A stretch of 64,000 nucleotides of DNA from Embleya scabrispora DSM 41855 (GTDB taxonomy: Bacteria; Actinomycetota; Actinomycetes; Streptomycetales; Streptomycetaceae): the NCBI RefSeq assembly GCF_000372745.1, contig NZ_KB889651.1:62001-126000 (forward strand), in the 5' to 3' direction. Under the pieces are notes generated by a model, which saw nothing but the letters and a program-made list of their open reading frames with translations, searched no databases and was not told the origin of the DNA. The position numbers and the translations under genes were made by a program. Numbering within the stretch: the stretch's first letter is position 1; every line of letters begins with the position of its first letter. Of the stretch, positions 10,795 through 40,060 are shown piece by piece.

Positions 10795-10839
10795 CCCACC
10801 CACTCCCGGGGATGACCTCCCCGAAGTGACGAGTTCCAC

Positions 10840-10945: not shown

Positions 10946-12796
10946 ATGGCCGCCACGCGCCGGACCGCCGACCGCGCCGAACAAGCGCCCACCGACGGCA
11001 CCGGCCGGCTCCTGATCGGTGCCGTGCGGCACAGCGCGGGGCGCACCGCGGCCGCGTTCGGCTGCAGCGCCGGCTCCGCCGCCGTCGCGATCGCGCTGCC
11101 CGCCGTCCTGGGCCACACGCTCGACCTGCTCCTCGACGACGCCGCCGGCGCGCGCCGCGCGGTCGCCCTGTGCGCGATCCTGATCGTCGCCGAGGTCGTC
11201 TTCGACGCATCGGAGGCGCTCCTGGGCGGGATCATCACCGCCCGGACCGCCGCCTGGCTGCGCCGGCTCGGCATCGACCACGTGTTGTCCCTCGCCCCGC
11301 ACCGCGCCGCCGAGCGCTGCACTCCCGGCGACCTGGTCACCCGGCTCACCGGCAACGTCGCCGAGGCGAGTACCGCTCCCGTCACGGCCGCAAACGGCGT
11401 GGCCACGCTCTTCGTACCGCTCGGTGGCCTGATCGCACTCGCGTTGATCGACATCCGGCTGTTCGCGGTCTTCCTGGCGGGTCTACCGCTGCTGGCCTGG
11501 CTGCTGCGCGCCTTCGTCCGCGACACCTCGGACAGCGTGACCCGCTACCAGCGCGTGCAGGCGGACATCGCCGGCCGGCTCGTCGAGGCGCTGGGCGGCG
11601 CGCGCACGATCGCCGCCGCCGGCAGCTCGGCACGCGAACTCGAGCGGATCCTGGCGCCGTTGCCGGAACTGGGCAACCAGGGCAGGCGGATGTGGCACGT
11701 CTACGGACGGGCCATGGCCGGCGCCGGAATCCTGGTACCGCTGCTGACCACCGCGGTGTTGGCGGTCGGCGGAGTACGACTGACCCACGGCGACCTGACC
11801 GTCGGCGAACTGCTCGCCGCCTCGCGCTACGCCGTGCTGGCCGCCGGTCTGGGCGCCGTCGTCGGGCAGATCAACGCCCTCGTACGCAGCCGCGCCGCCG
11901 GCCGCCGCACCGCCGAGTTGCTCGCCGTGCCTTCGATGCGGTCGGGCACCGACCCGCTTCCGGTGGACGGCCCGGGTCGGCTCGAACTGCGCGGGGTCAC
12001 CGTCGTCCGGGACGGCACGCCGGTACTGCGCGACGTGGACCTGATCGTGCCGGGCGGCACCACCACGGCCGTGGTCGGGCACTCCGGTGCGGGCAAGTCC
12101 ACACTCGCCGCGGTCGCCGGACGACTGACCGACGTGGACGCGGGCACGGTGCTGTTGGACGGTGTACCGCTGGCCCGAATCGCCCCGGAACGGCTGCGTC
12201 GGGAGGTCGGGTACGCCTTCGAGCGACCGGCCCTGTTCGGCGACACGATCGCCGGGGCGATCGCCTTCGGCCCCTACGCCTGCTCCCCCGGCGAGATCGA
12301 GATCGCCGCCGAGGCAGCCGGCGCCGACGGCTTCATCCGGCTCCTGCCGAAGGGCTACGCGGCGCCGCTGGACACCGCGCCGCTTTCCGGCGGCGAGCTG
12401 CAACGCCTCGGCCTGGCACGCGCGTTCGCGCACGCAGGCCGATTGCTCGTGCTGGACGACGCCACGTCGAGCCTGGACAGTGTCACCGAACTGCGGGTCG
12501 GTCGGGCGCTGGTCCGGGACGTCCGCGCGGGCACCCGACTGCTGATCGCCCACCGAGCCTCCTCCGCGGCGCGGGCCGACCGGGTCGTCTGGCTGGAGGA
12601 CGGCCGGGTGCGCGCGTTGGGCACGCACGAGGTGCTGTGGGAAGACCCGGGCTACCGGGCGGTGTTCGCGGATCCGGGCGAGGTGCCGGGTGCCCGGGAG
12701 GACCCGGGCTACCGGGCGGCGTTCGCCGATCCGGATGAGACTGCCGACGGATCGGCTGCCGGGGCCGCGCCGGACTCCGTCGGGGAGGCCCGGTGA
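10946..12796 (+). CDS. ramA: ABC transporter for SapB-like peptide, first subunit
   Basis: This 616-residue fused membrane and ATPase half-transporter probably exports the lanthipeptide as a heterodimer with RamB. Membrane helices occupy about residues 30-310. The ATPase has Walker A GHSGAGKST (about 378), signature LSGGE (about 480) and Walker B LLVLDDATSSLD (about 503). The Walker B aspartate is followed by Asp where Glu is usual, suggesting that this site is degenerate and the partner subunit does most ATP hydrolysis. ATG 10946 follows GGAGGCGAGG. Near the C terminus the motif EDPGYRA.FADP is duplicated. It overlaps ramB by four bases (GTGA). Confidence 0.94.
   Translation: MAATRRTADRAEQAPTDGTGRLLIGAVRHSAGRTAAAFGCSAGSAAVAIALPAVLGHTLDLLLDDAAGARRAVALCAILIVAEVVFDASEALLGGIITARTAAWLRRLGIDHVLSLAPHRAAERCTPGDLVTRLTGNVAEASTAPVTAANGVATLFVPLGGLIALALIDIRLFAVFLAGLPLLAWLLRAFVRDTSDSVTRYQRVQADIAGRLVEALGGARTIAAAGSSARELERILAPLPELGNQGRRMWHVYGRAMAGAGILVPLLTTAVLAVGGVRLTHGDLTVGELLAASRYAVLAAGLGAVVGQINALVRSRAAGRRTAELLAVPSMRSGTDPLPVDGPGRLELRGVTVVRDGTPVLRDVDLIVPGGTTTAVVGHSGAGKSTLAAVAGRLTDVDAGTVLLDGVPLARIAPERLRREVGYAFERPALFGDTIAGAIAFGPYACSPGEIEIAAEAAGADGFIRLLPKGYAAPLDTAPLSGGELQRLGLARAFAHAGRLLVLDDATSSLDSVTELRVGRALVRDVRAGTRLLIAHRASSAARADRVVWLEDGRVRALGTHEVLWEDPGYRAVFADPGEVPGAREDPGYRAAFADPDETADGSAAGAAPDSVGEAR
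12641..12735 (+). repeat. In-frame tandem duplication at the end of ramA
   Basis: About 38 bp beginning GAAGACCCGGGCTACCGGGC at 12641 recur from 12698, a shift of 57 bp or 19 codons, so the reading frame is kept. The encoded repeat is EDPGYRAVFADP then EDPGYRAAFADP, separated by a short Gly/Pro linker. The duplication lies beyond the ATPase core and probably does not affect catalysis. Confidence 0.75.
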
Positions 12797-14526
12797 AGGC
12801 CGGTCGATCCCGGGTTCCGGTGTTGGCCCGGCGTTTCCTGGCCCGGCGCAGGTGGGTCCTGGTCCGGCTCGCGGGCTGGTCGCTGCTGGAGTCGACCCAG
12901 ACGTTCCTCGGCGGCTACGGCGTGGCGATGGCCCTCGATCGCGGCTTTCTGGCCGGGCACACCGGAATCGGGTTGGTCTGGCTGGCCGTTGCGGCAGTGG
13001 CGATCGTCCTCGGCGGGTCGGCCACGGGCGGAACCTTTCGCGGCCTGGCCGATCTGGTCGAGCCGCTGCGCGACGGGCTGGTCCGGCGGGTGGCGGCCGG
13101 CGCATTGGTCGAGGCGATCGACGCGCCGGCGCGCGCGGCGGACGGCGCGGTGGTCTCCCGCCTGACCAACCAGAGCGAGATCGCCCGGGACAGCTTCGCC
13201 GGACTGGTCCTGGTGACCCGTTCGTTCGTCTTCACCGCGCTCGGCGCATTGTTCGGACTGGCCGCACTGGCACCGGAGTTGCTGGTCGTGGTGGTGCCGC
13301 CGCTGGTGCTGGGACTGGGGCTCTTCCTGGCCACGCTGGCACCGATGGCCGCGCGCCAGCGTGCCTTCCTGGACGCCGACGAGGCGCTGTCCGCCCGACT
13401 CGGGATGGTGGCGACGGGCCTGCGCGACGTACTGGCGGGCGGCGCACACGATTCGGTCGCGGCCCGCACGCACGCGCTGATCGACGCCGAGGCGCGCGCG
13501 GCGCGGTCGTTGGCCCGGTGGGCCGGCGCGCGGGCGATCGCGCTGGGGGTGGCCGGGCAGTTGCCGGTCCTGCTGCTGTTGGTGACCGCGCCCTGGCTGC
13601 TCGATCGGGGCCTGACCGCGGGTGCGCTGCTGGGTGCGCTGACCTACCTCACCCAGGCACTGCTGCCGGCGCTGCACACGTTGATGCACGCGCTCGGCGC
13701 GGCCGGCACCCGACTGCTCGTGGTCCTGGATCGGCTCACCGCGGGGCCGACGGTCACTCCGGCCGCAGCGCGACGCGTGGCCGGCTCGACCGGCGCGTCC
13801 GGCGGGCCGCCGCGCGTGCGGCTGCACCGCGTGACGTTCGCGTACGGACCGAGCGCGGCGCCGGTGTTGCGCGATCTGGACCTGAGCGTCGAACCCGGTG
13901 AGCACCTCGTGGTGGTCGGTCCCAGCGGGATCGGCAAGTCGACGCTGACGGCCATCGTCGCGGGTGTGCTCGCACCGGACCGGGGCGAGGTGTACGTGGA
14001 CGGCCGGCCGGTCCGCCCGGTCGGCGGTGACCCGTCCCGGCTGCGGGTGCTCATCCCGCAGCAGGCGTACGTGTTCACCGGCAGCGTCCGGGAGAACCTG
14101 CACTACCTGTGTCCGGACGGCGCGTCCACATCGGCGTTGACCGCGTCGGCGGACGCGGTGGGCCTGTTGCCGCTGATCGATCGACTGGGTGGCCTCGACG
14201 CGCCGGTGGACCCGGCGTCGTTGTCCCAGGGCGAGCGGCAGTTGATCGCGCTGGGCCGGGCCCACCTGTCACCGGCGCCCCTGGTCTTGCTGGACGAGGC
14301 CACGTGTCATCTGGATCCGGTCGCCGAACGGCGCGCCGAACAAGCCTTCGCGCAGCGGCCCGGGACGCTGATCGTGGTCGCGCATCGGATCAGTTCGGCC
14401 CGACGGGCGGACCGGGTGCTGGTCCTGGACGGCGTGCACGCGGTGTGCGGGACGCATCACGAACTCCTGGAGCGCTCGTCGCTGTACCGGGATCTGGTCG
14501 GGGACTGGCACGCCGAGCGAATCTGA
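12793..14526 (+). CDS. ramB: ABC transporter for SapB-like peptide, second subunit
   Basis: This 577-residue fused ABC half-transporter is the partner of RamA. Its six helices lie in roughly residues 20-300. The ATPase has Walker A GPSGIGKST (about 376), a signature reading LSQGE instead of LSGGE (about 477), and Walker B LVLLDEATCHLD with the catalytic Glu intact. With RamA's Asp at that position, this gives one canonical and one degenerate site, as in many heterodimeric exporters. The GTG start at 12793 overlaps the ramA stop and follows GGGGAGG. The gene ends 88 bp before the convergent ramR. Confidence 0.94.
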   Translation: MKAGRSRVPVLARRFLARRRWVLVRLAGWSLLESTQTFLGGYGVAMALDRGFLAGHTGIGLVWLAVAAVAIVLGGSATGGTFRGLADLVEPLRDGLVRRVAAGALVEAIDAPARAADGAVVSRLTNQSEIARDSFAGLVLVTRSFVFTALGALFGLAALAPELLVVVVPPLVLGLGLFLATLAPMAARQRAFLDADEALSARLGMVATGLRDVLAGGAHDSVAARTHALIDAEARAARSLARWAGARAIALGVAGQLPVLLLLVTAPWLLDRGLTAGALLGALTYLTQALLPALHTLMHALGAAGTRLLVVLDRLTAGPTVTPAAARRVAGSTGASGGPPRVRLHRVTFAYGPSAAPVLRDLDLSVEPGEHLVVVGPSGIGKSTLTAIVAGVLAPDRGEVYVDGRPVRPVGGDPSRLRVLIPQQAYVFTGSVRENLHYLCPDGASTSALTASADAVGLLPLIDRLGGLDAPVDPASLSQGERQLIALGRAHLSPAPLVLLDEATCHLDPVAERRAEQAFAQRPGTLIVVAHRISSARRADRVLVLDGVHAVCGTHHELLERSSLYRDLVGDWHAERI

Positions 14527-14614
14527 GCCGGGCGTCGGGGCGGTGGCGGGGCGTCGGGGGTGCTCACGTGGTCGGGATCCGGGCTGGGGTGCGCCCGGAT
14601 CCGACAGGGCCGTT

Positions 14615-15202
14615 CTATACCCAGCCGGCGTCCTGCGAGATCCGGATGGCGTCGATCCGGTTGCGGGCTCCGGTCTTGCGGGTGATCGCGGACATGTAGT
14701 TCCGTACCGTGCCGATGCTGAGCCGCAGGTTGCGGGCTATCTCAGGAGCGGACGCCCCTTCGGCGGCCAGCGTCAGCACCCGTATCTCGCGTGGGGTCAG
14801 CGGGGCACTCGCGGCGCGCAGCAGATCGAGCGCGAGCGACCCGTCCACGTAGCGCCGACCGGCGGCCACCAACCGGATCGCGCGCGGCAGTTGCGGCGGC
14901 TGGGCGTCCTTGTCCACGAAGCCCAAAGCCTTGGCCTCGGCCGCGCGACACAGGCTGCCCGGCCGCGAGGTGGTGGCCAGGACGAGCAGGGCACAGTCCG
15001 GGTCGACCGGGCGTCGCGGTAATTGCACGGACCCGGGACAGTCCACGTCCACCACACAGACGTGCGGACGTTGGCACCGGGCCCGATTCGGTGCGCCGTC
15101 CCAACTATCGGCCTCCACCTCGATGTCCTCCTCGCGATCGAGCAGCGCGGTCAGCGCCGATCGCATCAATTCCGTGTCGTGCACCAAGAGAACGCGGATC
15201 AT
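14615..15202 (-). CDS. ramR: LuxR-type orphan response regulator of the ram operon
   Basis: This 195-residue regulator has an N-terminal receiver domain (about 1-120; IRVLLVHDTELMRSAL) and a C-terminal LuxR-type helix-turn-helix (about 130-190; LTPREIRVLTLAAEGASAPEIARNL). The phosphorylation-site region CVVDVDCPG keeps an Asp. The switch Lys is in FVDKDAQ. It is convergent to ramB, the arrangement seen in S. coelicolor and S. griseus (amfR), where RamR switches on the ram operon. No sensor kinase is encoded nearby. ATG 15202 follows GGGAGCG. Autoregulation cannot be judged from the 230 bp upstream, which holds no clear palindrome. Confidence 0.92.
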   Translation of the reverse strand: MIRVLLVHDTELMRSALTALLDREEDIEVEADSWDGAPNRARCQRPHVCVVDVDCPGSVQLPRRPVDPDCALLVLATTSRPGSLCRAAEAKALGFVDKDAQPPQLPRAIRLVAAGRRYVDGSLALDLLRAASAPLTPREIRVLTLAAEGASAPEIARNLRLSIGTVRNYMSAITRKTGARNRIDAIRISQDAGWV

Positions 15203-15432
15203 TGTTCGCTCCCAACCGACGCCGACGTCCCGAAGTTGCCCGTCGAGCACCTCGATAGCTACCCCGCCCCACGACTTACACCACAACCTGTAATCGAATG
15301 ATGCGTTTGTGCGACGTTTGGATCCCTCGCTCGCACTTCCTGTCGAACCACGACCGCTCGGGGCCGCTCTCGATCACGCGGTGCCGCCGGCCCGGCCGGA
15401 GCTTCCGGTGCGGATCGGCGCGCGGGCGGGGG

Positions 15433-28871: not shown

Positions 28872-31196
28872 CTACTTGAGCCCGTTGTCGACCGCGGTCA
28901 TCAGCACTCCGGTGTCTCCGCTCATCTCCCAGAGCATTGCGCCCAGGAGGTTCCTGGTGCGGAGCCAGGCCGTCTTCTTGCCGATGGACCATGTGTCGTC
29001 GAAGGTCCACCATTGGCCGTTGTTACCGGTGTAGCCGTAGGTCGAGACCGACTGTTCGTCGTGGTAGACGGTCAGGTTCGGTACCGACGCGATCAGATTG
29101 GCGTAGCCCCTGGTGCCGGCCTCCTCCGGGAACTGGCCCGGTGCGGCGCCGTTGGCGGCCTGCCATTCACCGTGCGCCCCGCCGTCCGTGACCTGTTGCC
29201 AGCCACGGCCGTAGAAGGCGAGCCCGAGCACCAGCTTGCGCGGGTCGACGCCCGCGTCCAGATAGTGCTGGACGGTGGATTCGACACTGAACTTGGTCGG
29301 GTACGGGTCCCCGGCGTCGACGTACAGGTTGCCCTGGTCGCCGGTGCGGTTCGGTTCCCAGCTGTTGTCGCTGCCGGAACCGTGGAAGTCGTAGCCCTGG
29401 ACGTTGGCGAAGTCCATGTAGTCGAACACGCTGGGCGTGCCGTCCCGCGTGGTGATGTCCCAGCCCACGTCGATCTTGCCCGGGTCGGCCGGGGTGAACG
29501 CGGTGAGCAGGTAGTGCTTGCCGGTGGTCGAGCCCAGTGCGTCCATCTGCTTGCGGAACTCGGCCATCAGCAGGGTCAGGTTGTTCTTGTCGTCGGTCGA
29601 GATGTGGTTGCCGGCGTGACCCTCGGAGCCGGGCCACTCCCAGTCGATGTCGAACCCGTCGAAGACGCCCGCCGCGACACCGGTGCCGCCGCGTCCATTG
29701 GTCACCGGCAGGTTGCCCTTGATGTACATGTCCACGCAGGACTTCACGAACTTCTGCCGCGACGCGTCGGTCTTGGCGGCGTCCGAGAAGTACTTGCTGT
29801 ATGTCCAACCGCCGATCGAGATCAGCGACTTGAGCTTCGGGTACTTGGCCTTGAGTTGCAGCAGCTGGTTGTAGTTTCCGGCCAGCGGCTGGTTCCAGGT
29901 GTCGGCGCTCCCGTTGACGGACTCGCCCGCACCGACCGAGCGTTCGTAGTCGGCCCACGAATCGCCCGCACCATCACCCTGGTTGGGATCCTGTGGTCCC
30001 GGGGTGGTGGCTCGGGTGACCCCGTTGAGGCAGGTCAGGTTGGTGGGATCGATGTTGGAGAACGCGTAGTTGAGGTGGGTCAGCTTGGCCGCCGCGCCGG
30101 TGGTGTCCAGTGACTTCATCGTGTAGGCGCGGCCGTAGATGCCCCACTGCACGAAGTAGCCCACACGCGCGTAGTCGTTGCCGGGGTTGCCCCCGCCGGT
30201 GGTCTTGACCGTCAGCGGCGCACTGGCCGGACCGGTCTGGTCGATGGTGTCCCGGGCGACCACCGTGTAGGTGTACGTGGTGTTCGCCGTCAGGCCACTG
30301 TCCCCGTAGGTGGTGGTGGTCACCGTCGCGAGCTTGGTCGCGCCCCGGTAGACGTCGTAGTTCTTGATGCCGTGATCGTCGGTCGCCGCCGCCCAGTTGA
30401 GCGTCAGCGAGGTGTCCGTTACCGCGCTCGCCCGGGGAGTGCCCGGCGCGGTCGGCGGATCGTCGGTGCCGCCACCCGTAGGCTTGGTGCGCAGCGTGGC
30501 CGAGGAACTCGCCGGGCCGGTCTGGCCGATGGTGTCCCGGGCGACGATCTTGTAGACGTAGGCGGTGTCGGCGCTCAGGCCGGTGTCGGTGTAGGCGGTG
30601 CCGGTGGCCGTGCCGACCACCGTGTTGCCCCGGTGGATGTCGTAGTTCTGAATGCCCTTGTCGTCGGTGGCCGCCGGCCAACTCAGCGAGATCGAGTCGA
30701 CGGTGGTCGCGGTGGCGGTGGGCTGTCCCGGTGCGGTCGGCGGGTTGTCCGTCGGCGGCGCGCCGTCGCAGGGACCGCCATTGACCTTGCAGTTGGTGGG
30801 ACTTCCGGGCCCGGAGCCGACGAAGCCGAACTTGGTACTGGCTCCGGGGGCGAGCGAGCCGTTGTACTCGCGGTTCTTCGCGGTGATGTGCGAACCGGAC
30901 TTGGTGATCAGCGTGTCCCAGTACGCGCCCACGGAGGTGCCGGCGGGGAAGTCCCACTCGACGGTCCAGGCCGTGATGGCGGTGGTTCCGGTGTTCTTGA
31001 TCGTCCACTCCGCCTGGAAGCCGCCGCCCCAGTCGGAGGTCTTGGCGAACGTTGCGGTCGCGCCCGCGGCAGCCTGCGCGGGCGCGGCCGACAGGCCGAC
31101 CATCGCGGCGAGCGGGAGAAGCAGGGTGGCACAGATCGCGATGAATCTCTTGCCCTGCCTGGTGCGTTTGGTGCGCCTCACGGTTCCGATGGCCAT
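28872..31196 (-). CDS. Secreted chitinase, CBM2-FN3-FN3-GH18
   Basis: This 774-residue secreted enzyme hydrolyses chitin. Order of parts: a basic signal peptide (about 1-38, ending AQAA), a family 2 carbohydrate-binding module (about 40-142) and two fibronectin type III domains. These two FN3 domains (about 155-345) are near-copies of each other and carry ARDTI.QTGPAS. A GH18 catalytic barrel (about 355-774) follows. The catalytic DxxDxDxE motif is FDGFDIDWEW, with Glu520 the proton donor; GYDFHG and MLWEMSGD complete the barrel. ATG 31196 follows AGGAG. The promoter carries two 12-bp repeats typical of Streptomyces chitinase genes. Confidence 0.97.
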   Translation of the reverse strand: MAIGTVRRTKRTRQGKRFIAICATLLLPLAAMVGLSAAPAQAAAGATATFAKTSDWGGGFQAEWTIKNTGTTAITAWTVEWDFPAGTSVGAYWDTLITKSGSHITAKNREYNGSLAPGASTKFGFVGSGPGSPTNCKVNGGPCDGAPPTDNPPTAPGQPTATATTVDSISLSWPAATDDKGIQNYDIHRGNTVVGTATGTAYTDTGLSADTAYVYKIVARDTIGQTGPASSSATLRTKPTGGGTDDPPTAPGTPRASAVTDTSLTLNWAAATDDHGIKNYDVYRGATKLATVTTTTYGDSGLTANTTYTYTVVARDTIDQTGPASAPLTVKTTGGGNPGNDYARVGYFVQWGIYGRAYTMKSLDTTGAAAKLTHLNYAFSNIDPTNLTCLNGVTRATTPGPQDPNQGDGAGDSWADYERSVGAGESVNGSADTWNQPLAGNYNQLLQLKAKYPKLKSLISIGGWTYSKYFSDAAKTDASRQKFVKSCVDMYIKGNLPVTNGRGGTGVAAGVFDGFDIDWEWPGSEGHAGNHISTDDKNNLTLLMAEFRKQMDALGSTTGKHYLLTAFTPADPGKIDVGWDITTRDGTPSVFDYMDFANVQGYDFHGSGSDNSWEPNRTGDQGNLYVDAGDPYPTKFSVESTVQHYLDAGVDPRKLVLGLAFYGRGWQQVTDGGAHGEWQAANGAAPGQFPEEAGTRGYANLIASVPNLTVYHDEQSVSTYGYTGNNGQWWTFDDTWSIGKKTAWLRTRNLLGAMLWEMSGDTGVLMTAVDNGLK

Positions 31197-31285
31197 GGGT
31201 GCTCCTGGATTTGGGATCCGATGGAGAACCTGCGCCCCACAATGGGCCGGGATGTCCGGCCCACACAGTAGGGCGAGCGTAATGA

Positions 31286-31316
31286 AGGTCTGGACCAATA
31301 ATCAAGGTCTAGACCA
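31286..31316 (-). promoter_or_regulatory. Chitinase promoter direct repeats (DasR-type sites)
   Basis: Read on the minus strand, TGGTCTAGACCT (31316-31305) and TGGTCCAGACCT (31297-31286) lie 19 bp apart, start to start. They match the 12-bp direct repeats known from Streptomyces chitinase promoters and the core of the DasR site (TGGTCTAGACCA). A possible -10 element, TACTGT, reads on the minus strand at 31270-31265. N-acetylglucosamine-dependent control by DasR is therefore expected. Confidence 0.8.
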
Positions 31317-31504: not shown

Positions 31505-31523
31505 GTGACATGGTACATGTCAC
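31505..31523. promoter_or_regulatory. 19-bp palindrome upstream of the collagenase gene
   Basis: GTGACATGGTACATGTCAC has perfect 8-bp arms around three bases. It lies in the 536-bp divergent region between chitinase and collagenase, about 210 bp before the collagenase start, in a stretch of lower GC content. It looks like a dimeric regulator site; the regulator is not known. Confidence 0.5.
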
Positions 31524-31566
31524 GCGGTCGGCCGGACGCTCCCCTTCCGGTCCTCTGCAGCGCCAA

Positions 31567-31600
31567 CTGCCCCACCACCGTTGGGATTTCGGTGGGGCAG
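31567..31600 (+). other. Hairpin in the presumed collagenase 5' leader
   Basis: CTGCCCCACC (31567-31576) pairs perfectly with GGTGGGGCAG (31591-31600) around a 14-base loop. It lies between the palindrome at 31505 and the collagenase start. It could shape the mRNA leader or stop read-through; no known riboswitch was recognised. Confidence 0.4.
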
Positions 31601-31732
31601 GGACCAGGACCACGCTCGCGCCGATCCCGAAGTCCCCGGAGCGGGACCGGCGACGAACCGCTCATGCCGTGGCACCACCCCTCATCCGGAGGCACGCATC
31701 GGCGTGACCTCTGTTCCGCAAGGAGACGGTCT

Positions 31733-34327
31733 TTGCGAACCAAACCGGCACGACAGGGACTTCGCCGCATCGCGGTGGTCACCATCTCCCTCGCCATGGG
31801 CTTCGGGTTGTTCACCCAGCCCGGATCGGCCGCCCCCTCCGATCCGGCCGTGACGACACCGACGGCCCGGGCGGCCTCCACGTCCGCCCCCACCTCCACC
31901 GCCGGACCGTCGGCCGCCATCGCCCCCAGCGCCTCGGCCGACCAAACCCCGCACACCCAGGGCAAACCGCTACCGGTACCCGCCCGCCCACCGCTGTCCG
32001 CGTCCGCGTCGGCCACCGCCCGGCGCGACTACGACGATCCGTCGGCCGCCGTACTCCCGGCCCGCCCGTCCATGGCCGCCGAGCAACGCGCCGCCGCGGC
32101 GGCGACCTGCACGGTCGCCGACTTCGCCGGACGCAGCGGCGCCGCGCTCGTCCAGCAGATCAAGGCATCGACCACGGACTGCGTCAACACGCTGTTCACG
32201 GTCACCGGGCCCGACGCCTACTCGATCTTCCGTGAGGCGCAGATGACCACGGTCGCCTACGCCCTGCGCGACCTGGCCGGCGCCTACCCGGGCAACGGCA
32301 GCACCGGCGCCCCGCAGATCGTGCTCTTCCTGCGGGCCGGCTACTACGTGCACTGGTACAACCAGTCCACCGTGGGCACCTACGGCCCCACGTTGCAGAC
32401 CGCCATCCGATCGGGTCTGGACGCCTTCTACGCCAATACGCACTCCTCCGACGTCACCGACGCCAACGGCGAGACGCTGGCCGAGGCGGTCACCCTGATC
32501 GACAGCGCCGAGGAGAACGCCCGTTACCTCTACGTGGTCAAGCGCCTGTTGGCGGGCTACAACAGCTCGTACGACGCGTCCTGGTGGATGAAGGCCGCGG
32601 TCAACAACGTCTTCACCGTGCTGTTCCGCGGGCACCAGGTCCCCGAATTCGTCACCGCGGTGCAGGCCGACCCGAGCATCGTCGACGCGGTCGACGCGTT
32701 CGCGACCGCGCACCGCGACCTGCTCGGCACCGACCGCGCGTACCTGACCACCAACGCGGGTCGCGAACTGGTCCGCTTCGTGCAGTACCCGACCCTCCAG
32801 GCCAAGGTGCGCCCGAAGGTGCGCGCGCACCTGCAGGCCACCTCGATGACCGGCCCCACCGCACCGCTGTGGGTCGCCCTGGCCGAGGGAACGGACTTCT
32901 ACGACAAGGCACAGTGCGCCTACTACGACACCTGCAACCTCCAGGCCAGGCTGACCGCGGCCGTGCTGACCGTCGACTACACGTGCAGTACGAGCATCCG
33001 CATCCGCGCGCAGGAGCTGACCCCGGCCAACCTCGGCGCCGCGTGCACCAGTCTGCGCAACCAGGACGCCTACTTCCACGGCGTGGTCGCGGACAACGGC
33101 CCCGTCGCCAACGACCACAACAGCACCATCGAGGTCGTGGTCTTCGACTCCAGCAGCGACTACCAGACCTACGCCGGCGCGATCTTCGGCATCGACACCA
33201 ACAACGGCGGCATGTACCTGGAGGGCGACCCGAGCGCAGCCGGCAACCAGCCGCGCTTCATCGCCTACGAGGCCGAGTGGACGCGTCCCGCGTTCGAGAT
33301 CTGGAACCTCAACCACGAGTACACGCACTACCTCGACGGCCGCTTCGACATGGCCGGCGACTTCAACGCCGGCGTCACCACCCCGACCATCTGGTGGATC
33401 GAGGGCTTCGCCGAGTACGTCTCCTACTCCTACCGCAACCTGCCCTACGACGCGGCGATCACCGAGGCGGGCAAGCACACCTACGCGCTGAGCACGGTGT
33501 TCGACACCACCTACTCCCACGACACGACCCGCATCTACCGCTGGGGCTACCTCGGGGTGCGGTACATGCTGCAAAAGCACCCCGCGGACGTCACCCGGCT
33601 GCTGGGCTACTACCGGGCCGGCGACTGGACCGGCGCCCGCTCGTTCCTGACGAGCACCATCGGCACCCGCTACGACAGCGACTGGTACACGTGGCTGGCG
33701 GCCTGCGCGGCGGGCGACTGCGGCGGCGGCACTCCCGCCAACCGTCCGCCGGTGGCCGAGTTCACCAGCGCCGTCACCGGCACCTCGGTCGCCTTCGCCG
33801 ACACCTCCACCGACCCGGACGGCACCATCGCCTCCCGTGCCTGGGACTTCGGCGACGGCACCACCTCGACCGCGACCAACCCGACCAAGACCTACGCCGC
33901 GGGCACCTACACCGTACGGCTGACCGTGACCGACAACCGAGGCGCCACCGCCAACGTCACGCACACCGTCACGGTCACCGGCGGCGGCACCGCCGAGTGC
34001 ACCGACCCCGACACCCGCGCGCTGGGCAAGAACTGCCGGCGCAGCGCCCTGTCGGCGGCGACGGATGGAAACGACAAGCTCTACTTCTACATCTACATCC
34101 CGGCGGGTACCGCCCGTCTGAACATCACCACCGCCGGTGGTACCGGCAACGCCGACCTCTACTACAACAGTGACGTGTGGGCCACGAACACCGCCTACAC
34201 GGTCAAGTCCACCGCGGCCGGAAACGCCGAGACGCTGACCATCACGGCACCGCCCGAGGGCTACCACTACATCACCCTCCACGCGAAGCAGTCCTTCGCC
34301 GGCACGTCGCTCACCACCGCCTACTGA
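31733..34327 (+). CDS. Secreted collagenase (M9) with PKD and PPC domains
   Basis: This 864-residue zinc metalloprotease is exported to degrade collagen or gelatin-like proteins. The TTG at 31733 is chosen because AAGGAGA precedes it and the next residues (RTKPARQGLRRIAVVTISLA) form a proper signal peptide. A Ser/Thr/Ala-rich pro-region follows, then the M9 N-terminal and peptidase domains with zinc motif HEYTH (528-532) and the downstream EGFAEY. One PKD domain (about 670-755; FGDGTTSTATNPTKTYAAGTYTV) and a bacterial pre-peptidase C-terminal domain (about 765-864) complete it. It is divergent from the chitinase, consistent with polymer scavenging. Confidence 0.95.
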   Translation: MRTKPARQGLRRIAVVTISLAMGFGLFTQPGSAAPSDPAVTTPTARAASTSAPTSTAGPSAAIAPSASADQTPHTQGKPLPVPARPPLSASASATARRDYDDPSAAVLPARPSMAAEQRAAAAATCTVADFAGRSGAALVQQIKASTTDCVNTLFTVTGPDAYSIFREAQMTTVAYALRDLAGAYPGNGSTGAPQIVLFLRAGYYVHWYNQSTVGTYGPTLQTAIRSGLDAFYANTHSSDVTDANGETLAEAVTLIDSAEENARYLYVVKRLLAGYNSSYDASWWMKAAVNNVFTVLFRGHQVPEFVTAVQADPSIVDAVDAFATAHRDLLGTDRAYLTTNAGRELVRFVQYPTLQAKVRPKVRAHLQATSMTGPTAPLWVALAEGTDFYDKAQCAYYDTCNLQARLTAAVLTVDYTCSTSIRIRAQELTPANLGAACTSLRNQDAYFHGVVADNGPVANDHNSTIEVVVFDSSSDYQTYAGAIFGIDTNNGGMYLEGDPSAAGNQPRFIAYEAEWTRPAFEIWNLNHEYTHYLDGRFDMAGDFNAGVTTPTIWWIEGFAEYVSYSYRNLPYDAAITEAGKHTYALSTVFDTTYSHDTTRIYRWGYLGVRYMLQKHPADVTRLLGYYRAGDWTGARSFLTSTIGTRYDSDWYTWLAACAAGDCGGGTPANRPPVAEFTSAVTGTSVAFADTSTDPDGTIASRAWDFGDGTTSTATNPTKTYAAGTYTVRLTVTDNRGATANVTHTVTVTGGGTAECTDPDTRALGKNCRRSALSAATDGNDKLYFYIYIPAGTARLNITTAGGTGNADLYYNSDVWATNTAYTVKSTAAGNAETLTITAPPEGYHYITLHAKQSFAGTSLTTAY

Positions 34328-34524: not shown

Positions 34525-35019
34525 TCAGCCGACATCCCCTGCGGTCAACCGACCGCCGCCGGGCGCGTCGGCAACCGACCTGCCCCGCGCGCCGCCGATC
34601 ACCACGCCGAGCACGGTCGAGGTCGGCACGTACCCGAAGTGCCGCGAGTCCTGCGTGCGCGCCGCGTCCCCGCGTACCACCAGCGAACCGGCCGGCACGG
34701 CCGTTCCGCGCACCGCGTGCACCGCCGGGCGCACCTCGCGCGGCACCGGATCGCCGGGCATCGCCGCGACCCGTTTGACCAGCCAGCGCAGGTCGTCCTC
34801 CGCGCCGTACCGGACCGGATTGCGAAAGACGATCGCGTCGCCGCGCCGCACGGCGGTGGTCCGACGCACGATCAACCGCTCGCCGTCCACGAACGTCGGT
34901 GCCATGCTCATCCCGGTCACCCGCACCAGCGCCAACCGCGAGCGCACCGCCCACCCGGCCAGCGCCGCACTCGCCGCGACCGCCCCGAGGACCAGGGCCG
35001 CACGCCCGTTCCGCCTCAC
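34525..35019 (-). CDS. S26-family signal peptidase-like protein
   Basis: This 164-residue membrane-anchored serine protease has one N-terminal helix (about 8-25). The catalytic Ser38 lies in GMSMAP and the catalytic Lys82 in WLVKRVAAMPGD; DSRHFGYVPTSTVLG is the closing family motif. GTG 35019 follows GGAGGTGG. It lies 28 bp after the ABC transporter and ends the peptide operon. It is shorter than general signal peptidases, similar in size to small dedicated S26 proteases. Both peptide precursors carry AGA directly before their first Cys, a signal-peptidase-type site. I infer that this enzyme removes their leaders; a nickel-SOD maturation role was considered, but no sodN is nearby. Confidence 0.85.
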   Translation of the reverse strand: MRRNGRAALVLGAVAASAALAGWAVRSRLALVRVTGMSMAPTFVDGERLIVRRTTAVRRGDAIVFRNPVRYGAEDDLRWLVKRVAAMPGDPVPREVRPAVHAVRGTAVPAGSLVVRGDAARTQDSRHFGYVPTSTVLGVVIGGARGRSVADAPGGGRLTAGDVG

Positions 35020-35047
35020 CGCGCCACCTCCGCGCGCCCGTTCGACC

Positions 35048-36931
35048 TCACTGCGCCTCCTCCGCGATCCTGGCCGAGTCCTCGCGCGGGTCCCGGTATC
35101 CGGCCGCCTGGAGGTCGAACAGCCGGGCGTAGTGCCCATCGGCCAGGGCCATCAGCTGGTCGTGGCCGCCCAGTTCGGTGATCCGGCCGTCGGCGAGCAC
35201 GGCGATGGTGTCCGCGTCGCGCAGCGCGCCGAGCCGGTGCGACACGAGCAGGCTGGTCCGGCCGGCCCGGTGTCGGTGCAGCGTGCGGTGCACCTCGTGC
35301 TCGGCCTCGGCGTCCAGGCCCGAGCTGGGCTCGTCCAGGATCAGCAGGTCCGCGTCGCCGCGCATCAGCGACCGGGCCAGTGCGACCCGCTGCCACTGGC
35401 CGCCGGACAGCGTGACGCCGGCCCTGTCGTCGTCCTCGTCCAGGTGCACCCGGCTCAACTGGGTCCGGTAGCCGTCCGGCAGCGCGGACAGGTCCGCGTC
35501 GATGCCGGCCAGTACCGCGCTCATCCGGATCCGGGCCGAGTCCTCGCGGTGGGCCAGGTCGCCGATGCCGATGTTCTCCGCTGCGGAGAGGTCGTAGGTC
35601 ATGTAGTCCTGGAAGGTCACCCCGAGCCGGCGGCGCAGTGCGGCCACGTCCATCGTGCGGATGTCCACGCCGTCCCAGCGGATCGCGCCCCGATCCGGGT
35701 CGTAGAACCGGCAAAGCAGCTTGATCAGCGTGCTCTTGCCGGTGCCGTTGCGTCCGACCAGGCCCACCGCGCGACCCGCCGGCACCACCAGGCTCACCCC
35801 GCGCAGCACCCACGGCCCCTGTGCGTCGTAGCGGAACCACACGTCGTCGAACTCGAGTTGCCCACGCAGCGCGGGCACCCGGCCGGTCCCGGGGTCGAGG
35901 TCGTCGGGGGTGTCCATCACATCCAGGAAATGGCCGAACAGCCGAATCGCCTCGGCGGCCATGCCGGCCTGGGTGACCACGCCGGTGAATGCCTGCTGCA
36001 CGCCGGCCGCGGCGGCGGTGAACAACATCACGTCGCCGACCGTGAAGCGGCCGTGCGCCGCGCCGGCCACCACCACGACCATGCCCAGCCCGGCCACCAC
36101 CGCGTTCAGTGCGGCGAATCCGGCTTGGATCAGCATGCCCCGTCGTGCCACCGTGAGTTCGGCGTCGGTGGCCTCGCGCAGCGCCCGCACCAGGCGGCCG
36201 TGCAGGAAGTCGCCCAGCCCGAACAGCCGGATCTCCTTGGCCGCGCGCGGGTCGGTCAGCAGTGATCGGTAGAACAGGCGGCGGCGCTGCTTCCCGGAGG
36301 TCAGCTCCAGCACCGCCACCTGCCGGCGGGCCATCGACAGCCGGGCCGCCAACGCGGCGACGCCGACCAGGAACAGCAGGCCCACCATCGGCGGCCACAC
36401 GGCGAGCAGCACACCGGTGAACCCGCTCAGCGCGGCGGCGGAACGCACCACCTCCTGGCTGAACATGGTGATGTTGTGCGGTGCGTCCTCGGACGCCTGT
36501 TGGGCCAGTCGCAGGCGGTCGTGGAAGGCCGGGTCCTCGAAACGGCGCAGTCCGCGGAACTCGTTGACCTTGGCGAACAGGTCCCGCTCGACGGTGACCA
36601 CGAGCCGCCGGCGCACCACCTCGTCCAGATAGGCGGCCAGTTGCATCAGCACCGCGAGCACCGCGCCGAGTGTGGCGAGCGCGAGGCCCAGTGCCACGGC
36701 CCGCCCGGAGTCGACGTGTTCGCCTCGGCCCAGCTCGTCGAAAAGCAGTTTGGTCAGCCACGCGGCCGGCGCGGGCAACACGCCGATCAGCACGGTGGCC
36801 GGCAGCAGCAGGAGCGCACCGACGGGCGCGGCCCTGAATTGCAGCGCGAGGGCCACCTTCACCGCGCGCGGGCGCAACCGGGACCCCGAAGGCGTACCGC
36901 CCTCCGAGGTCCCGTCCGGATCCGGGATCAA
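35048..36931 (-). CDS. ABC transporter, fused membrane and ATPase domains
   Basis: This 627-residue half-transporter has six membrane helices (about 40-310) and an ATPase domain. The ATPase has Walker A GRNGTGKST (about 391), signature LSGGQWQ (about 510), Walker B LLILDEPSSGLD and switch His in VSHRLG. No peptidase C39 domain is present, so leader removal must be done by another protein. The TTG at 36931 overlaps the stop of the second Cys-rich peptide gene (TTGA) and lacks its own ribosome-binding site, which points to translational coupling. It probably exports the Cys-rich peptides. An insertion with acidic residues (HLDEDDDRAG) precedes the signature motif. Confidence 0.9.
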   Translation of the reverse strand: MIPDPDGTSEGGTPSGSRLRPRAVKVALALQFRAAPVGALLLLPATVLIGVLPAPAAWLTKLLFDELGRGEHVDSGRAVALGLALATLGAVLAVLMQLAAYLDEVVRRRLVVTVERDLFAKVNEFRGLRRFEDPAFHDRLRLAQQASEDAPHNITMFSQEVVRSAAALSGFTGVLLAVWPPMVGLLFLVGVAALAARLSMARRQVAVLELTSGKQRRRLFYRSLLTDPRAAKEIRLFGLGDFLHGRLVRALREATDAELTVARRGMLIQAGFAALNAVVAGLGMVVVVAGAAHGRFTVGDVMLFTAAAAGVQQAFTGVVTQAGMAAEAIRLFGHFLDVMDTPDDLDPGTGRVPALRGQLEFDDVWFRYDAQGPWVLRGVSLVVPAGRAVGLVGRNGTGKSTLIKLLCRFYDPDRGAIRWDGVDIRTMDVAALRRRLGVTFQDYMTYDLSAAENIGIGDLAHREDSARIRMSAVLAGIDADLSALPDGYRTQLSRVHLDEDDDRAGVTLSGGQWQRVALARSLMRGDADLLILDEPSSGLDAEAEHEVHRTLHRHRAGRTSLLVSHRLGALRDADTIAVLADGRITELGGHDQLMALADGHYARLFDLQAAGYRDPREDSARIAEEAQ

Positions 36932-37101
36932 CAGGGGTTGCCCAGCCGGATGGTGCAGACGCCGTTACAGCTGTAGCGGTACTCGCGGCCGCCGCTGCAG
37001 TAGCAGAGTTGGCCGACGTACTCGACGCAGGCTCCGGCGCGTTCTTCCTTCAGGACCAGGCCGAGCAGCCGGTCGCCCATGGTGCCGATCACTCGCTTCA
37101 T
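36928..37101 (-). CDS. Six-cysteine secreted peptide precursor, copy 2 (57 aa)
   Basis: I do not know a named family. The ATG at 37101 follows a strong GGAGG. Residues 1-24 form a leader (KRVIGTMGD, then LLGLVL, ending RAGA) almost identical to that of the neighbouring gene. Residues 25-57 form a core with Cys at 25, 33, 35, 45, 49 and 57, that is C-x7-C-x-C-x9-C-x3-C-x7-C. Leader and Cys positions are conserved between the copies while the loops vary, the usual sign of diversifying secreted peptides. Its stop overlaps the ABC transporter start. Cleavage after AGA would give a 33-residue core with Cys at both ends and room for three disulfides. Function could be antimicrobial, signalling or metal binding. 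Confidence 0.85.
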   Translation of the reverse strand: MKRVIGTMGDRLLGLVLKEERAGACVEYVGQLCYCSGGREYRYSCNGVCTIRLGNPC

Positions 37102-37144
37102 CTTGTGCCTCCGGGAGTTCGCGGTTCGGTGACGGGTGTGCCGG

Positions 37145-37315
37145 TCAGCACTTGGTGGTGGTCTTCACACACGGGCCGTTGCAGCTGTACACGTAGCGGT
37201 AGTGGCTACGGCACGCGCAGAACTGGCCGTGCTCCGGGACGCACGCCCCGGCTCGTTTCTCGCGGAGGACGAGTCCCAACAGTTTGTCGCCCATGGTGCC
37301 GATCACACGGTTCAT
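37145..37315 (-). CDS. Six-cysteine secreted peptide precursor, copy 1 (56 aa)
   Basis: This is the first gene of the minus-strand operon. The ATG at 37315 follows GGAAGG. The leader (NRVIGTMGD, LLGLVL, RAGA) matches that of copy 2, and the core has Cys at 25, 33, 35, 45, 49 and 56, that is C-x7-C-x-C-x9-C-x3-C-x6-C. Conserved core features besides Cys are Gln before the CxC pair, a Tyr-Arg-Tyr stretch and SCNG. The loops differ (for instance VPEH against VEYV, and a Lys/Thr-rich last loop). It lies 43 bp before copy 2. The shared CxC is compatible with disulfide or metal bonding. No lanthionine, radical SAM or cyclodehydratase enzyme is nearby, so plain disulfide maturation is the simplest model. 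Confidence 0.85.
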   Translation of the reverse strand: MNRVIGTMGDKLLGLVLREKRAGACVPEHGQFCACRSHYRYVYSCNGPCVKTTTKC

Positions 37316-37471
37316 CGTGGACCTTCCATTGCAGGGTCGAATCGGCGAAAGCGGGGTGTGCTTCTGCCGGAGGCGACGCTAAACCCTTCGTCATCCGTGT
37401 CGCAAGACAAAGCAAGGCGCCCGAATCAATGAATGCCGTTTTTGTTTCGGGTGGCCGCCGAGTGAGCACTG

Positions 37472-37499
37472 TTGCCATTGGCGAGCTCGGGGATACATT
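37472..37499 (+). promoter_or_regulatory. Candidate promoter for the thioredoxin-like gene
   Basis: TTGCCA (37472-37477) and TACATT (37494-37499) are spaced by 16 bp, about 75 bp before the ATG at 37573. The 257-bp divergent region between the peptide operon and this gene is clearly less GC-rich than its surroundings, as expected for a two-way promoter. Confidence 0.45.
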
Positions 37500-37572
37500 T
37501 CGACGGCCGTGTTCGCCGGTCGCGCGGACTTCGAGGTCGACCGACATCCTTCGCCATTTTGGGAGCATCCCC

Positions 37573-38118
37573 ATGCCGTTCCTGATCGCTGCCGTGGTGC
37601 TCGTCACGGTGCTGTGCCTGTTGAACCTGGTGCTCACGTTCGGCGTCATTCGCAAACTTCGCGCCCAGGGCGAACACGGGCATGGCGCGCAGAACGATGT
37701 GGACATCTCGGATCTGGTCTTGCCGGTGGGTTCGACGGCGCCCGCCTTCACCGCGGTCACCACCGCGGGTGAGACGGTCTCCCGGGACGGCTTGGGCGCC
37801 GCGCTGTTCGGCTTCTTCTCGCCGAACTGCCGGGCTTGCAGGGAGCGGTTGCCGCAGTTCGTAGAGGCGGCGCGCAAGGCGGGCGGCAGTCGTCGGGTGC
37901 TCGCGGTGGTGCACGGGGACGAGGCGGAGACCCGGGAGCAGGTCGCCGCGCTGGCCGCGGTCGCGCAGGTCGTGGTCGAACCGACCGACGGTCCGCTGGG
38001 TCGCGGATTCGCGGTGACCGGATATCCGGTGTTCGGTCTGCTGGCCGCGGACGGCACGATCACCGCGAGCGGTTTCGACCCGAAAGCCCTTTCCGCGCCG
38101 GTGCGCACCGCCGCCTGA
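37573..38118 (+). CDS. Membrane-anchored thioredoxin-like protein (MauD/TlpA type)
   Basis: This 181-residue protein has one N-terminal membrane helix (about 2-25), a linker, and an extracytoplasmic thioredoxin fold. The fold has redox pair Cys86 and Cys89 in SPNCRACRE and the cis-proline loop at Pro152 in TGYPVF. The start MPFLIAAVVLVTVLCLLNLV resembles actinobacterial MauD/TlpA-like proteins; MauD acts in forming the disulfides of methylamine dehydrogenase. No other mau gene is present. It is divergent from the two six-Cys peptide genes and is the obvious candidate to form, correct or reduce their disulfides outside the membrane. ATG 37573 follows GGGAG. Confidence 0.9.
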   Translation: MPFLIAAVVLVTVLCLLNLVLTFGVIRKLRAQGEHGHGAQNDVDISDLVLPVGSTAPAFTAVTTAGETVSRDGLGAALFGFFSPNCRACRERLPQFVEAARKAGGSRRVLAVVHGDEAETREQVAALAAVAQVVVEPTDGPLGRGFAVTGYPVFGLLAADGTITASGFDPKALSAPVRTAA

Positions 38119-38533: not shown

Positions 38534-39808
38534 TCACACCCGGGCGTGGGTGGTGATGTCCTCCTCGAACAGTTCGACCATGCTCGCGGTCACCGTGGGG
38601 CGGGACTGGGCGAGGGCGTCCAGGTAGTCGCGGGTGTGTGCGCCCGGGCCTTCGGCCGCCGCGGACTCGTCGAACACGTCGCGCTCGAACGACGCCTGGG
38701 CGGCGATCCGGGCGGCGTGACCGATGTCGGCGGGCGTGAGCAACTCGCTGGCCGCCACCAGCGCGTCCAGGTCCACGTCCGGACGGGCCGACGCGTATCG
38801 GGTCCACATCGCCCGCCGCGCGTCCGCGTCCGGCGTGCCCACCGGGATGATGTAGTCGAATCGGCCCGGCCGCAGGAACGCCGGGTCCAGCGAGCGCACC
38901 GAATTGGTCGCGCACACCAGCAGCCGATCGCCGTGTTCGCGGAACGCCGGGATCAGCTTGAGCAGTTCGTTGGTCACCGCGTGACCGGCGCTGGGCCGGG
39001 CGTGCCGGACCGGCGCGATCTCCTCGACCTCGTCGATGAACACCACGATCCGCTCCAGCCTGGCCAACCGCCCGAACGCCTCGCGCAGCGCAGCGGCCAG
39101 GTTGCCGCCGTCGGCCAGCCGCGAGGGCAGCAGTTCCACGAACGGCCAGCCCAGACGGGAGGCGATCGCCCGGGCGAAGGTGGTCTTGCCGGTCCCGGGC
39201 GGCCCGAACAGCGCGATCGCGCTGGGCGGTTCGACGCCGTGCCGCAGCGCGCGCTCGGGATCGGCCAGTGGCAACACCACGCGCCGTTCGATCAGGTTCT
39301 TCTCCACCTCCATGCCGGCCACCTTCGACCACAGGTCGCTCGGCAACATTCGGCCGCCCAGCCGGTCCAGGGTCTCCGCCGCATGGTCGTCGACCGGCTC
39401 GACCTTCTCGAAGTAGGCCACCGCCGGCCGCCGCTCGTAGCCCGCGTTGCGCAGCCCCAACTCGCGCGTGTCCTCCTCGGGGAGCACATAGGCGATCCGG
39501 CGCACCCGCTCCTCGACCAACCTGCGCTCCAGCGCGAGCAGCAGCGTGCTGGTCAGCCCCAGACCGCGCGCGGCGGGCGAGATGGCGATCCGCATCACCC
39601 AGGCCCGCCCCTCGGACACCGTGGCCAGCGCCGCGCCCACCACCGCGCCGTCCCGCCGGGCGACCACGGCCGGCTGGCGCGAGGCCAGCGCGTTGATGCA
39701 CTCGGACAGCGAGAAGACCGACTCCTGGCCGAGTTCGGTCGTGGTGTCGATCAGGTGCACCACCGCCGCGAGGTCCTCCTCGCGGTAGTCCTGTATGAGC
39801 CAGACCAT
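38534..39808 (-). CDS. GNAT acetyltransferase domain fused to an AAA+ ATPase
   Basis: This 424-residue fusion has an N-terminal GNAT domain (about 1-140) with the acetyl-CoA loop RGLGLTS (81-87). A C-terminal AAA+ ATPase follows (about 160-420). The ATPase has Walker A GPPGTGKT (202-209), Walker B VVFIDE (255-260), sensor-1 Asn302 and Arg fingers in FLRPGRFD (Arg313, Arg316), close to the FtsH/CDC48 class. The ATG at 39808 is chosen for its GGAG six bases ahead; upstream in-frame starts at 39820 and 39850 lack one. It may remodel and acetylate the same target protein or RNA. The target is unknown and the neighbours give no hint. Confidence 0.88.
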   Translation of the reverse strand: MVWLIQDYREEDLAAVVHLIDTTTELGQESVFSLSECINALASRQPAVVARRDGAVVGAALATVSEGRAWVMRIAISPAARGLGLTSTLLLALERRLVEERVRRIAYVLPEEDTRELGLRNAGYERRPAVAYFEKVEPVDDHAAETLDRLGGRMLPSDLWSKVAGMEVEKNLIERRVVLPLADPERALRHGVEPPSAIALFGPPGTGKTTFARAIASRLGWPFVELLPSRLADGGNLAAALREAFGRLARLERIVVFIDEVEEIAPVRHARPSAGHAVTNELLKLIPAFREHGDRLLVCATNSVRSLDPAFLRPGRFDYIIPVGTPDADARRAMWTRYASARPDVDLDALVAASELLTPADIGHAARIAAQASFERDVFDESAAAEGPGAHTRDYLDALAQSRPTVTASMVELFEEDITTHARV

Positions 39809-40060
39809 GAACAGCTCCATCCGTGGATCGAGTGCCTCGACGAGTGGCAAACACTAGGGAGCATCGCCGCGCCGTGAACGCGTCGTTGTGTACAAGTGCG
39901 CGCCCGAACTTGGTCACCCTGCGGATGGACACCTCGCGCAGGACCTGGGACACGCATGCCGGCCGAACCGGTGACCGGGCTCGGGGGCCGGGGCACAATG
40001 GCCTCGACCTCGTCCGCGCCGTCCGGCCCGCTCGGGCCGCCCGAACCCTACGGAGAACAG

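Follow-up and report, generated by a model that had tools for sequence, protein, structure and literature searches.

What does a locus make in which two small cysteine-rich peptide genes sit beside an exporter, a protease and a thioredoxin-like protein? Such a locus lies at positions 34525-38118 of a 64,000-nucleotide stretch of Embleya scabrispora DSM 41855 (GCF_000372745.1, contig NZ_KB889651.1, 62,001-126,000 of the forward strand), referred to here as the window. The twin peptide, exporter and protease genes lie on the minus strand, opposite a MauD-like gene on the plus strand:

37145-37315, minus strand: precursor peptide 1, 56 aa; leader 1-24 ending AGA, core 25-56, six Cys with spacing 7-1-9-3-6
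36928-37101, minus strand: precursor peptide 2, 57 aa; leader 1-24 ending AGA, core 25-57, six Cys with spacing 7-1-9-3-7
35048-36931, minus strand: ABC exporter, 627 aa; transmembrane region plus ATPase
34525-35019, minus strand: S26 signal-peptidase-like protease (PF10502, 2.5e-19); N-terminal hydrophobic stretch, Ser38/Lys82
37573-38118, plus strand: MauD/TlpA/ResA-like thioredoxin-fold protein, 181 aa; N-terminal membrane helix, CRAC

We consider it likely that the products of this cassette are two small peptides, exported and matured by its genes and carrying disulfide bonds, most likely aimed at competing microbes. Ribosomally made precursors would carry a charged 24-residue leader, not Sec-like by eye, and would cross the membrane through the dedicated ABC exporter. 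The membrane-anchored S26 protease is predicted to cut after A-G-A, giving cores of 32 and 33 residues, and the MauD-like protein would handle the core cysteines outside the membrane, resulting in three disulfides per core. Export, cleavage and disulfide formation are predicted steps for the window peptides, and the mature products would then act on competing microbes. The computed monoisotopic masses of the unmodified cores minus 6 H are 3633.529 and 3658.534, against 3639.576 and 3664.581 for the reduced cores. Two neighbouring genes were rejected as cassette members, given that among the 31 other loci searched a GNAT-AAA gene (38534-39850) was nearby in L005 and L006 only and an aldo/keto reductase in L005 only.

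High-GC DNA commonly holds short ORFs, and the twins might be chance ORFs beside unrelated transport genes. The first-pass annotation had described two genes of 56 and 57 codons with 24-residue leaders ending in AGA and a matching Cys pattern, and all three points were confirmed at the coordinates listed above. Each gene has a Shine-Dalgarno-like site 6 nt upstream (by eye) and a GC3 of 0.88, versus GC2 values of 0.50 and 0.49 for peptides 1 and 2. A profile built from 28 precursors of other subtypes still recovers both window peptides (7.8e-11 and 9.7e-10, next best 0.52 among 796 window ORFs), as does a leader-only version of it (4.8e-8 and 3.6e-7, next best 0.84 among the same ORFs), and in a reversed-sequence null 0 of 8,777 ORFs scored below 0.01. 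Peptide 1 has orthologues in L005, L006, L030 and other loci, and those in named Embleya records keep the same neighbour genes. Its whole-peptide pN/pS is low (0.07-0.43, six pairs from four loci). With these observations, and with the linkage data below by which it had already been ruled out, the chance-ORF reading retains a negligible probability.

For peptide 2, the whole-peptide pN/pS is 0.38-0.74 (six pairs), and comparing the window twins with each other gave 0.23 for the leader and 0.81 for the core; all pN/pS values come from four loci, are descriptive only and do not include L012. Because its core reaches a pN/pS of 1.04 against L030 and the second peptide of L012 has lost Cys 4 and Cys 6, peptide 2 is only loosely constrained, which counts against the favoured explanation. 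So does the weak peptide structure model (mean pLDDT 58.5), with which a fold search gave no significant match among solved folds. A profile search against solved structures likewise gave no match for the peptides, and a viral-contig scan with peptide 1 gave no relatives.

As the first-pass annotation had stated, the ABC start overlaps the stop of peptide 2; it is a TTG, and seven of ten inspected loci show such an overlap, with a TTG or ATG start. The window ABC is 78-92% identical to its counterparts in four other Embleya-group loci and 56% identical to that of L016. A Pfam scan of it detected no C39 peptidase domain, which would be in keeping with a separate protease. PADLOC matches on the same protein look like generic ATPase matches and were set aside. 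Ser38 and Lys82 of the S26 protease, also named in that annotation, are shared by all 13 homologues in an alignment; residues are counted from a probable GTG start at 35019 in an ORF that is open to 35139.

The check proposed at the outset, whether homologues recur beside MauD/TlpA, S26 and ABC genes, came out in favour of the first interpretation. Starting from the ABC, 28 actinobacterial loci were found at an identity of at least 43%, with a Cys-rich precursor in 26 of them; these loci are no census since two short peptide patterns were used and 51 of the 100 matched stretches were confirmed. At both exceptions, which are Micromonospora loci, MauE-MauD-ABC has as neighbours an ATP-grasp ligase and a precursor-like ORF of another kind; S26 was not found at either. 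Starting from the peptide, a match was obtained in 51 of 394 sampled Streptomycetaceae genomes, and MauE, MauD, ABC and S26 were all present in 37 of 40 scored regions, partners being counted anywhere in a 7-17.5 kb region at 250 bits for ABC and 34 bits for the others. The 47 matched non-Embleya genomes comprise these 40 regions, two further regions (both complete) and L016, with G096, G113, G142, G376 and second matches in several genomes left out. This two-way linkage of precursor and partner genes supports the favoured explanation. A locus with a precursor and only fragments of the partner genes (L099) counts against it.

Among 23 control loci with distant ABCs, six of them also actinobacterial by title, a precursor was found in none (best E 0.04) and the four genes together in none; MauE, MauD, S26 or a 250-bit ABC was found in none of seven other control stretches. 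One control stretch (L101) has a precursor-profile match of 1.3e-4 without partner genes and is not a random control because it was fetched for that weak match; it counts against the favoured explanation to that extent. This match (C128) and that of G168 (L017) were discarded, all four partner genes being missing there. With a two-row peptide profile, 5 of 394 family genomes gave a match. With an 11-row profile, matches came from 9 of 396 phylum genomes and, within the genus to which G210 belongs, from 3 of 70; phylum matches of the latter profile at 1e-3 to 7e-3, that of the host genome excepted, were treated as noise. Two loci are duplicates (L030 of L013, from G003, and L038 of L016, from G210), and L130 looks like the same species as L046, a training locus. 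Three loci (L135, L145 and L147) have an odd gene layout, and the MauD of L160 passes just at threshold.

Across 93 unique precursors of 52-79 aa, the leaders are conserved and the cores hypervariable, with 51 different Cys spacings; the Cys count is even in 90 of 93, and A-x-A precedes the core in 88 of 93. The expectation that cores start and end with Cys holds for the subtype in the window and fails for the family, where Cys directly follows the last A-x-A in 28 of 88 and is C-terminal in 67 of 93. The set consists of 46 curated and 51 profile-found precursors (97 in all) minus sequences identical from residue 2 on. The curated ones were partly chosen by eye with at least four Cys in view, so that their Cys richness is not independent, and parity, terminal Cys and spacing lay outside the choice; the curated precursors were also the training set of the profile that found the added ORFs. 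Homology is weaker for 11 curated precursors because a first eight-seed leader profile placed 28 of 39 ahead of other ORFs, ranked two later and left nine unlisted. None of the 46 matched NCBIfam and two gave a weak Pfam match to CBM_14, which could not be pinned and was seen in none of 11 family precursors rescanned. The window leaders are homologous to those of the family, AGA (A-x-A) precedes the core in both, and the window cassette links them to a family-clade ABC, a MauD-like gene and S26.

The membrane thioredoxin-like protein with CRAC was borne out, with an ATG at 37573 and two CRAC cysteines that are kept in all 12 sequences aligned. Its match to TIGR02661 (4.8e-6) is below the cut-off; its model (pLDDT 86.7) matches DsbE, ResA and StoA, pointing to a membrane helix followed by a thioredoxin fold of the TlpA/ResA type. 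The usual companion, MauE, was detected at 68 of 79 loci (tblastn at 1e-5, seven queries), and PF07291 (MauE) was found in 14 of 42 neighbour proteins scanned. Six cassette MauE queries gave no tblastn match at 1e-2 in the 64-kb window. The cassette is incomplete for its kind in that MauE is missing from the window branch, whose 11 subtype loci form one clade with a support of 1.0 in a tree built without L145, L147 and L163, in which only this support was read. MauE is encoded elsewhere in the host genome, which has three further cassettes besides the window one, and the window branch may therefore borrow it in trans from those other genomic copies.

ResA/TlpA-type proteins are often reductants rather than oxidants, so that the redox step could run in either direction, which counts against the favoured explanation. 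On a rival reading, the peptides would bind metal, as a secreted metallothionein or metallophore whose thiols the ResA-like fold of the MauD-like protein would keep reduced. Dense cysteines (17.4% of core residues), the C-x-C pair of this subtype and one MerR-type regulator among the neighbour families listed would agree with this. However, an even Cys number in nearly all precursors together with so many spacings suits disulfide pairing better than a single metal site, the cores are poor in His (1.8%) and rich in Tyr (8.0%) and Gly (10.0%), and no metal transporter appeared among 25 of 66 families listed for the 42 neighbour proteins scanned. We regard metal binding as improbable. Only slightly less improbable is that an enzyme encoded elsewhere modifies the cores further, disulfides being only part of maturation. 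The ATP-grasp ligase at the two Micromonospora loci indicates that export and redox genes can adjoin a modifying enzyme, and the window itself holds a lanthionine synthetase. The earlier statement that no lanthionine enzyme is present is correct for the cassette and incorrect for the window, given a RamC-like synthetase at 7893-10562. By contrast, that synthetase belongs to a SapB-like cluster some 20 kb from the cassette, where a RamS-like ORF and two ABC genes accompany it, and the regions found from the peptide mostly hold the four-gene set together. Neither lanthionine synthetase nor lasso B/C appeared among the families listed for the five cassette proteins, no lasso enzymes among 25 of 57 families listed for the 39 other window ORFs, and no radical SAM or YcaO in single scans of 15 of these 39.

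An unlikely reading that nonetheless carries appreciable weight is that the peptides serve the producer in development or signalling and are not weapons. Small secreted peptides take part in streptomycete development, no target is evident from the cassette, and no immunity gene was identified, the last being also a point against the explanation favoured here. Hypervariable cores behind one leader and patchy presence among the sampled genomes look instead like antagonism under diversifying pressure, and the peptides are probably antagonistic.

Pediocin with PedC, sublancin and the glycocins with BdbA/BdbB, and the sporulation killing factor likewise pair an exported antimicrobial peptide with an ABC transporter and a thiol-disulfide oxidoreductase of its own. 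They differ in using, variously, a double-glycine leader cut by the C39 domain of the exporter, a glycosyltransferase or a radical SAM enzyme, none of which is in the window cassette, where the leaders end in AGA rather than GG and the Pfam scan of the exporter showed no peptidase domain. PedC is described as a thiol-disulfide oxidoreductase (PMC4919988). In the class I lasso cluster of humidimycin, which also has ABC genes, disulfide formation is attributed to the DoxX-family membrane protein HumE and the thioredoxin-domain protein HumF, with the difference of a lasso precursor, the protease HumB2 and the cyclase HumC (PMC7168211). For TMcin, too, a single cluster covers export, disulfide bonding and removal of the leader, although its product has a transmembrane helix and its protease is of the DUF3267 type (PMC13252029). 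Likeness to methylamine dehydrogenase accessory proteins consists of MauE (PF07291) at family loci and MauD by the sub-cut-off TIGR02661 match, whereas the presumed substrate here is a precursor of 52-79 aa.

The closest precedent is decRiPPter (2020, PMC7794033), which reports Streptomyces candidate RiPP families with mauE (three, one also with mauD) whose precursors each have at least eight Cys, and whose strict filter required transporter, peptidase and regulator genes. These are described as computational candidates only, and the section on the MauE families is silent on S26, the A-x-A leader, six-Cys types, spread outside Streptomyces and MauE-less members (PMC7794033). The window cassette differs from them in having six Cys and no mauE in the window, with a MauD-like gene present. 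Compared by description, they are very likely eight-Cys members of the family here, such as L050, L053, L055 and L057. Among the open-access literature matches listed, no characterised member was found and decRiPPter alone names MauE with RiPPs; on these matches, this large family of soil-actinobacterial peptides seems almost undescribed.

Tentatively, and as a broader proposal that could prove right or wrong, these loci may represent a large, unnamed class of ribosomal peptides in actinobacteria, with the window cassette as one branch; maturation would consist only of export, cutting at A-x-A by an S26 protease dedicated to the task and MauD-MauE disulfide formation. One conserved leader would precede unrelated Cys frameworks by the dozen, comparable in bacteria to the peptide libraries of venoms, with up to four cassettes per genome and MauE-less cassettes sharing the MauE of a sister cassette. 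If true, about 1 in 8 sampled Streptomycetaceae genomes would encode stable disulfide-rich peptides missed by the family models searched, and the shared leader plus the four-gene machine would be a simple search key for them. The shared leader and machine would also provide a natural system for the export and folding of peptides rich in cysteine, and would allow the sharing of redox partners between cassettes to be put to the test.

The cassette is composed of twin peptide genes, an ABC exporter gene, an S26 protease gene and a facing MauD-like gene, arranged in the window as follows:

37145-37315, minus strand: peptide 1 gene, 56 residues
36928-37101, minus strand: peptide 2 gene, 57 residues
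35048-36931, minus strand: ABC exporter gene, after both peptide genes
34525 (end) to 35019 (probable GTG start), minus strand: S26 protease gene, after the ABC gene
37573-38118, facing the minus-strand genes: membrane thioredoxin-fold (MauD-like) gene

Peptides 1 and 2 are 61% identical. Their leaders share 20 of 24 residues and terminate in AGA, and their six-cysteine cores are spaced 7-1-9-3-6 (peptide 1) and 7-1-9-3-7 (peptide 2). Shine-Dalgarno-like sites were seen by eye before both genes, and third-position GC is strong in each. In 7 of 10 loci inspected (L numbers denote homologous or control loci), the ABC start and the stop of the final peptide gene overlap: the start is TTG in L005, L006, L030 and the window, and ATG in L032, L036 and L012. 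L031, L033 and L035 lack the overlap. Just past the cassette lie a GH18 chitinase with CBM2 and fn3 (28872-31298) and an adjoining M9 collagenase with PKD and PPC domains (31505-34327).

The two small genes, proposed in the first-pass annotation, are genuine, as indicated by orthologues, pN/pS, a subtype-free profile and a reversed-sequence null. Both twins with the same neighbours recur in two further genomes of the genus and in a pair of named Embleya records. In a plasmid collection, Embleya records are the only ones with peptide 1, two in all. The L005 and L006 cassettes, from Embleya sp. NBC_00888 and NBC_00896, are carried by linear records that PLSDB labels as plasmids, 5.7 and 3.1 Mb in size. 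The window-type cassette is missing from sister genome G001, where locus L099:5715-6631, a precursor with mere fragments matching MauD and S26 close by, looks as if it had decayed. Across the whole of peptide 1, pN/pS was 0.07-0.43 (six pairs, four loci). Comparing the window twins gave 0.23 in the leader versus 0.81 in the core, so the leader seems to be held with the core freer to vary. Peptide 2 was looser (0.38-0.74; core 1.04 against L030). Its counterpart in L012 (9358-9522), a locus of an Embleya-group sister genome, no longer has Cys 4 or Cys 6, which looks like decay.

The strongest test was a profile of 28 precursors, all of other subtypes, run against 796 window ORFs. It matched the window peptides at 7.8e-11 and 9.7e-10 (next best 0.52), and its leader-only version matched them at 4.8e-8 and 3.6e-7 (next 0.84). 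With an eight-seed leader profile, 28 distinct Cys-rich ORFs (20 non-seed) topped all others among 6,689; against 39 curated precursors, it placed 28 first and two lower, with nine not among the matches listed. When the same loci were read in reverse, 0 of 8,777 ORFs fell below 0.01 with each of three profiles. The peptide structure model was poor (pLDDT 58.5).

That homologues of the peptides would recur beside the same genes was borne out from both sides. Scanning a species collection with the ABC alignment, we confirmed 51 of 100 matching stretches. At the 28 actinobacterial loci among them (ABC identity 43-81%), a Cys-rich precursor was present at 26, curated precursors having been selected in part for Cys richness, a MauD-like gene at 26 by tblastn (in L042, 5 kb past the ABC gene) and S26 at 24. 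The MauD-like gene was recognised by alignment in L055 and L057, and S26 was not found in L037, L040, L045 or L048, the contig of L048 ending at that point. The 23 loci with more distant ABCs showed neither a precursor (best E 0.04) nor the partner-gene set. Control stretch L101, fetched on account of a weak match, gave a precursor-profile match of 1.3e-4 without partner genes. From the peptide side, a profile of 46 precursors (E 1e-4, 16 candidates scored per genome, which may miss some) matched at least 51 of 394 Streptomycetaceae genomes and, across the phylum, at least 3 of 396, all three Streptomycetaceae. MauE, MauD, ABC and S26 were all present in 37 of 40 fetched regions; the exceptions were L143 (no MauE or S26), L160 (no MauE) and L163 (no MauD or S26). 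Besides the window cassette, the host genome has three more, each with MauE. One Streptomycetaceae cassette carries three precursors in tandem (L097:6282-7033).

The 93 unique precursors are 52-79 residues long, with six cysteines in 62, eight in 21, four in 6, seven in 2, nine in 1 and ten in 1, in 51 different spacings. The last residue is Cys in 67 of them, A-x-A lies shortly upstream of the core in 88, and Cys directly follows the last A-x-A in 28 of those 88. Cores contain 17.4% Cys, 10.0% Gly, 8.0% Tyr and 1.8% His. NCBIfam matched 0 of 46 precursors, the sole Pfam match was to CBM_14, weak and confined to 2 of these 46, and a profile search of solved structures returned no relative. An ORF of Streptomyces sp. 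L-9-10 (L072:36-212), which was kept out of the family, has a knottin-like C-C-CC-C-C core and weak, below-cut-off Pfam matches to Toxin_35, Conotoxin and Dickkopf_N.

Ser38 and Lys82 are kept in 13/13 aligned S26 proteins, and both CxxC cysteines in 12/12 aligned MauD-like proteins. In the AlphaFold model of the window MauD-like protein (mean pLDDT 86.7), a thioredoxin fold comes after a long helix at the N-terminus; the best solved neighbours of this fold are DsbE, ResA and other thiol-disulfide oxidoreductases. Since no peptidase domain was matched on the window ABC exporter, a separate protease is expected. The window's subtype, comprising 11 loci, is a single clade in the ABC tree (support 1.0). 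The membrane protein MauE is found at 68 of 79 loci in this tree, being absent at the window, L005, L006, L030, L033, L035, L042, L047, L051, L143 and L160. Since L012 is placed among the Embleya copies and retains MauE, this subtype has probably undergone more than one MauE loss. The host genome has four MauE genes outside the window, three of them within sister cassettes. In two Micromonospora loci (L037:4215-8716, L040:4574-8716), an ATP-grasp (MvdD-type) ligase lies beside MauE, MauD and an ABC of the same clade, together with a 96-aa precursor-like ORF having three Cys close to its end; export and redox genes are thus not bound to a single product type.

The window also holds a SapB-like class III lanthipeptide cluster (7893-15286):

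7893-10562: RamC-like synthetase
10666-10794: 42-aa ORF, which we take to resemble RamS
10826-12796 and 12793-14526: two ABC genes
14615-15286: LuxR-type regulator

Section 7 of the decRiPPter survey describes three mauE-bearing candidate RiPP families, of which one also has mauD; their precursors have at least 8 Cys (PMC7794033). Likened by description, these very likely belong to the present family. That section makes no mention of a common leader, cleavage by S26, precursors with six Cys or occurrence outside Streptomyces (PMC7794033). No characterised member was among the matches listed in the open-access literature. We place the proposed products with known exported peptides whose disulfide bonds are served by a dedicated oxidoreductase, from which they would differ in the set of maturation genes.

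Even Cys numbers together with redox genes suggest disulfides in the cores. The ABC protein would export the precursor, S26 would cut after A-x-A outside the membrane, and the MauD-like protein would perform thiol-disulfide exchange on the core, with electrons passing to MauE where present. ResA-type proteins often reduce, so this step could run in either direction. It is proposed by analogy with the humidimycin cluster, in which disulfide formation is assigned to a DoxX and thioredoxin pair (PMC7168211). With hypervariable cores and patchy distribution as the sole guides, antagonism would be the likeliest use of the peptides.
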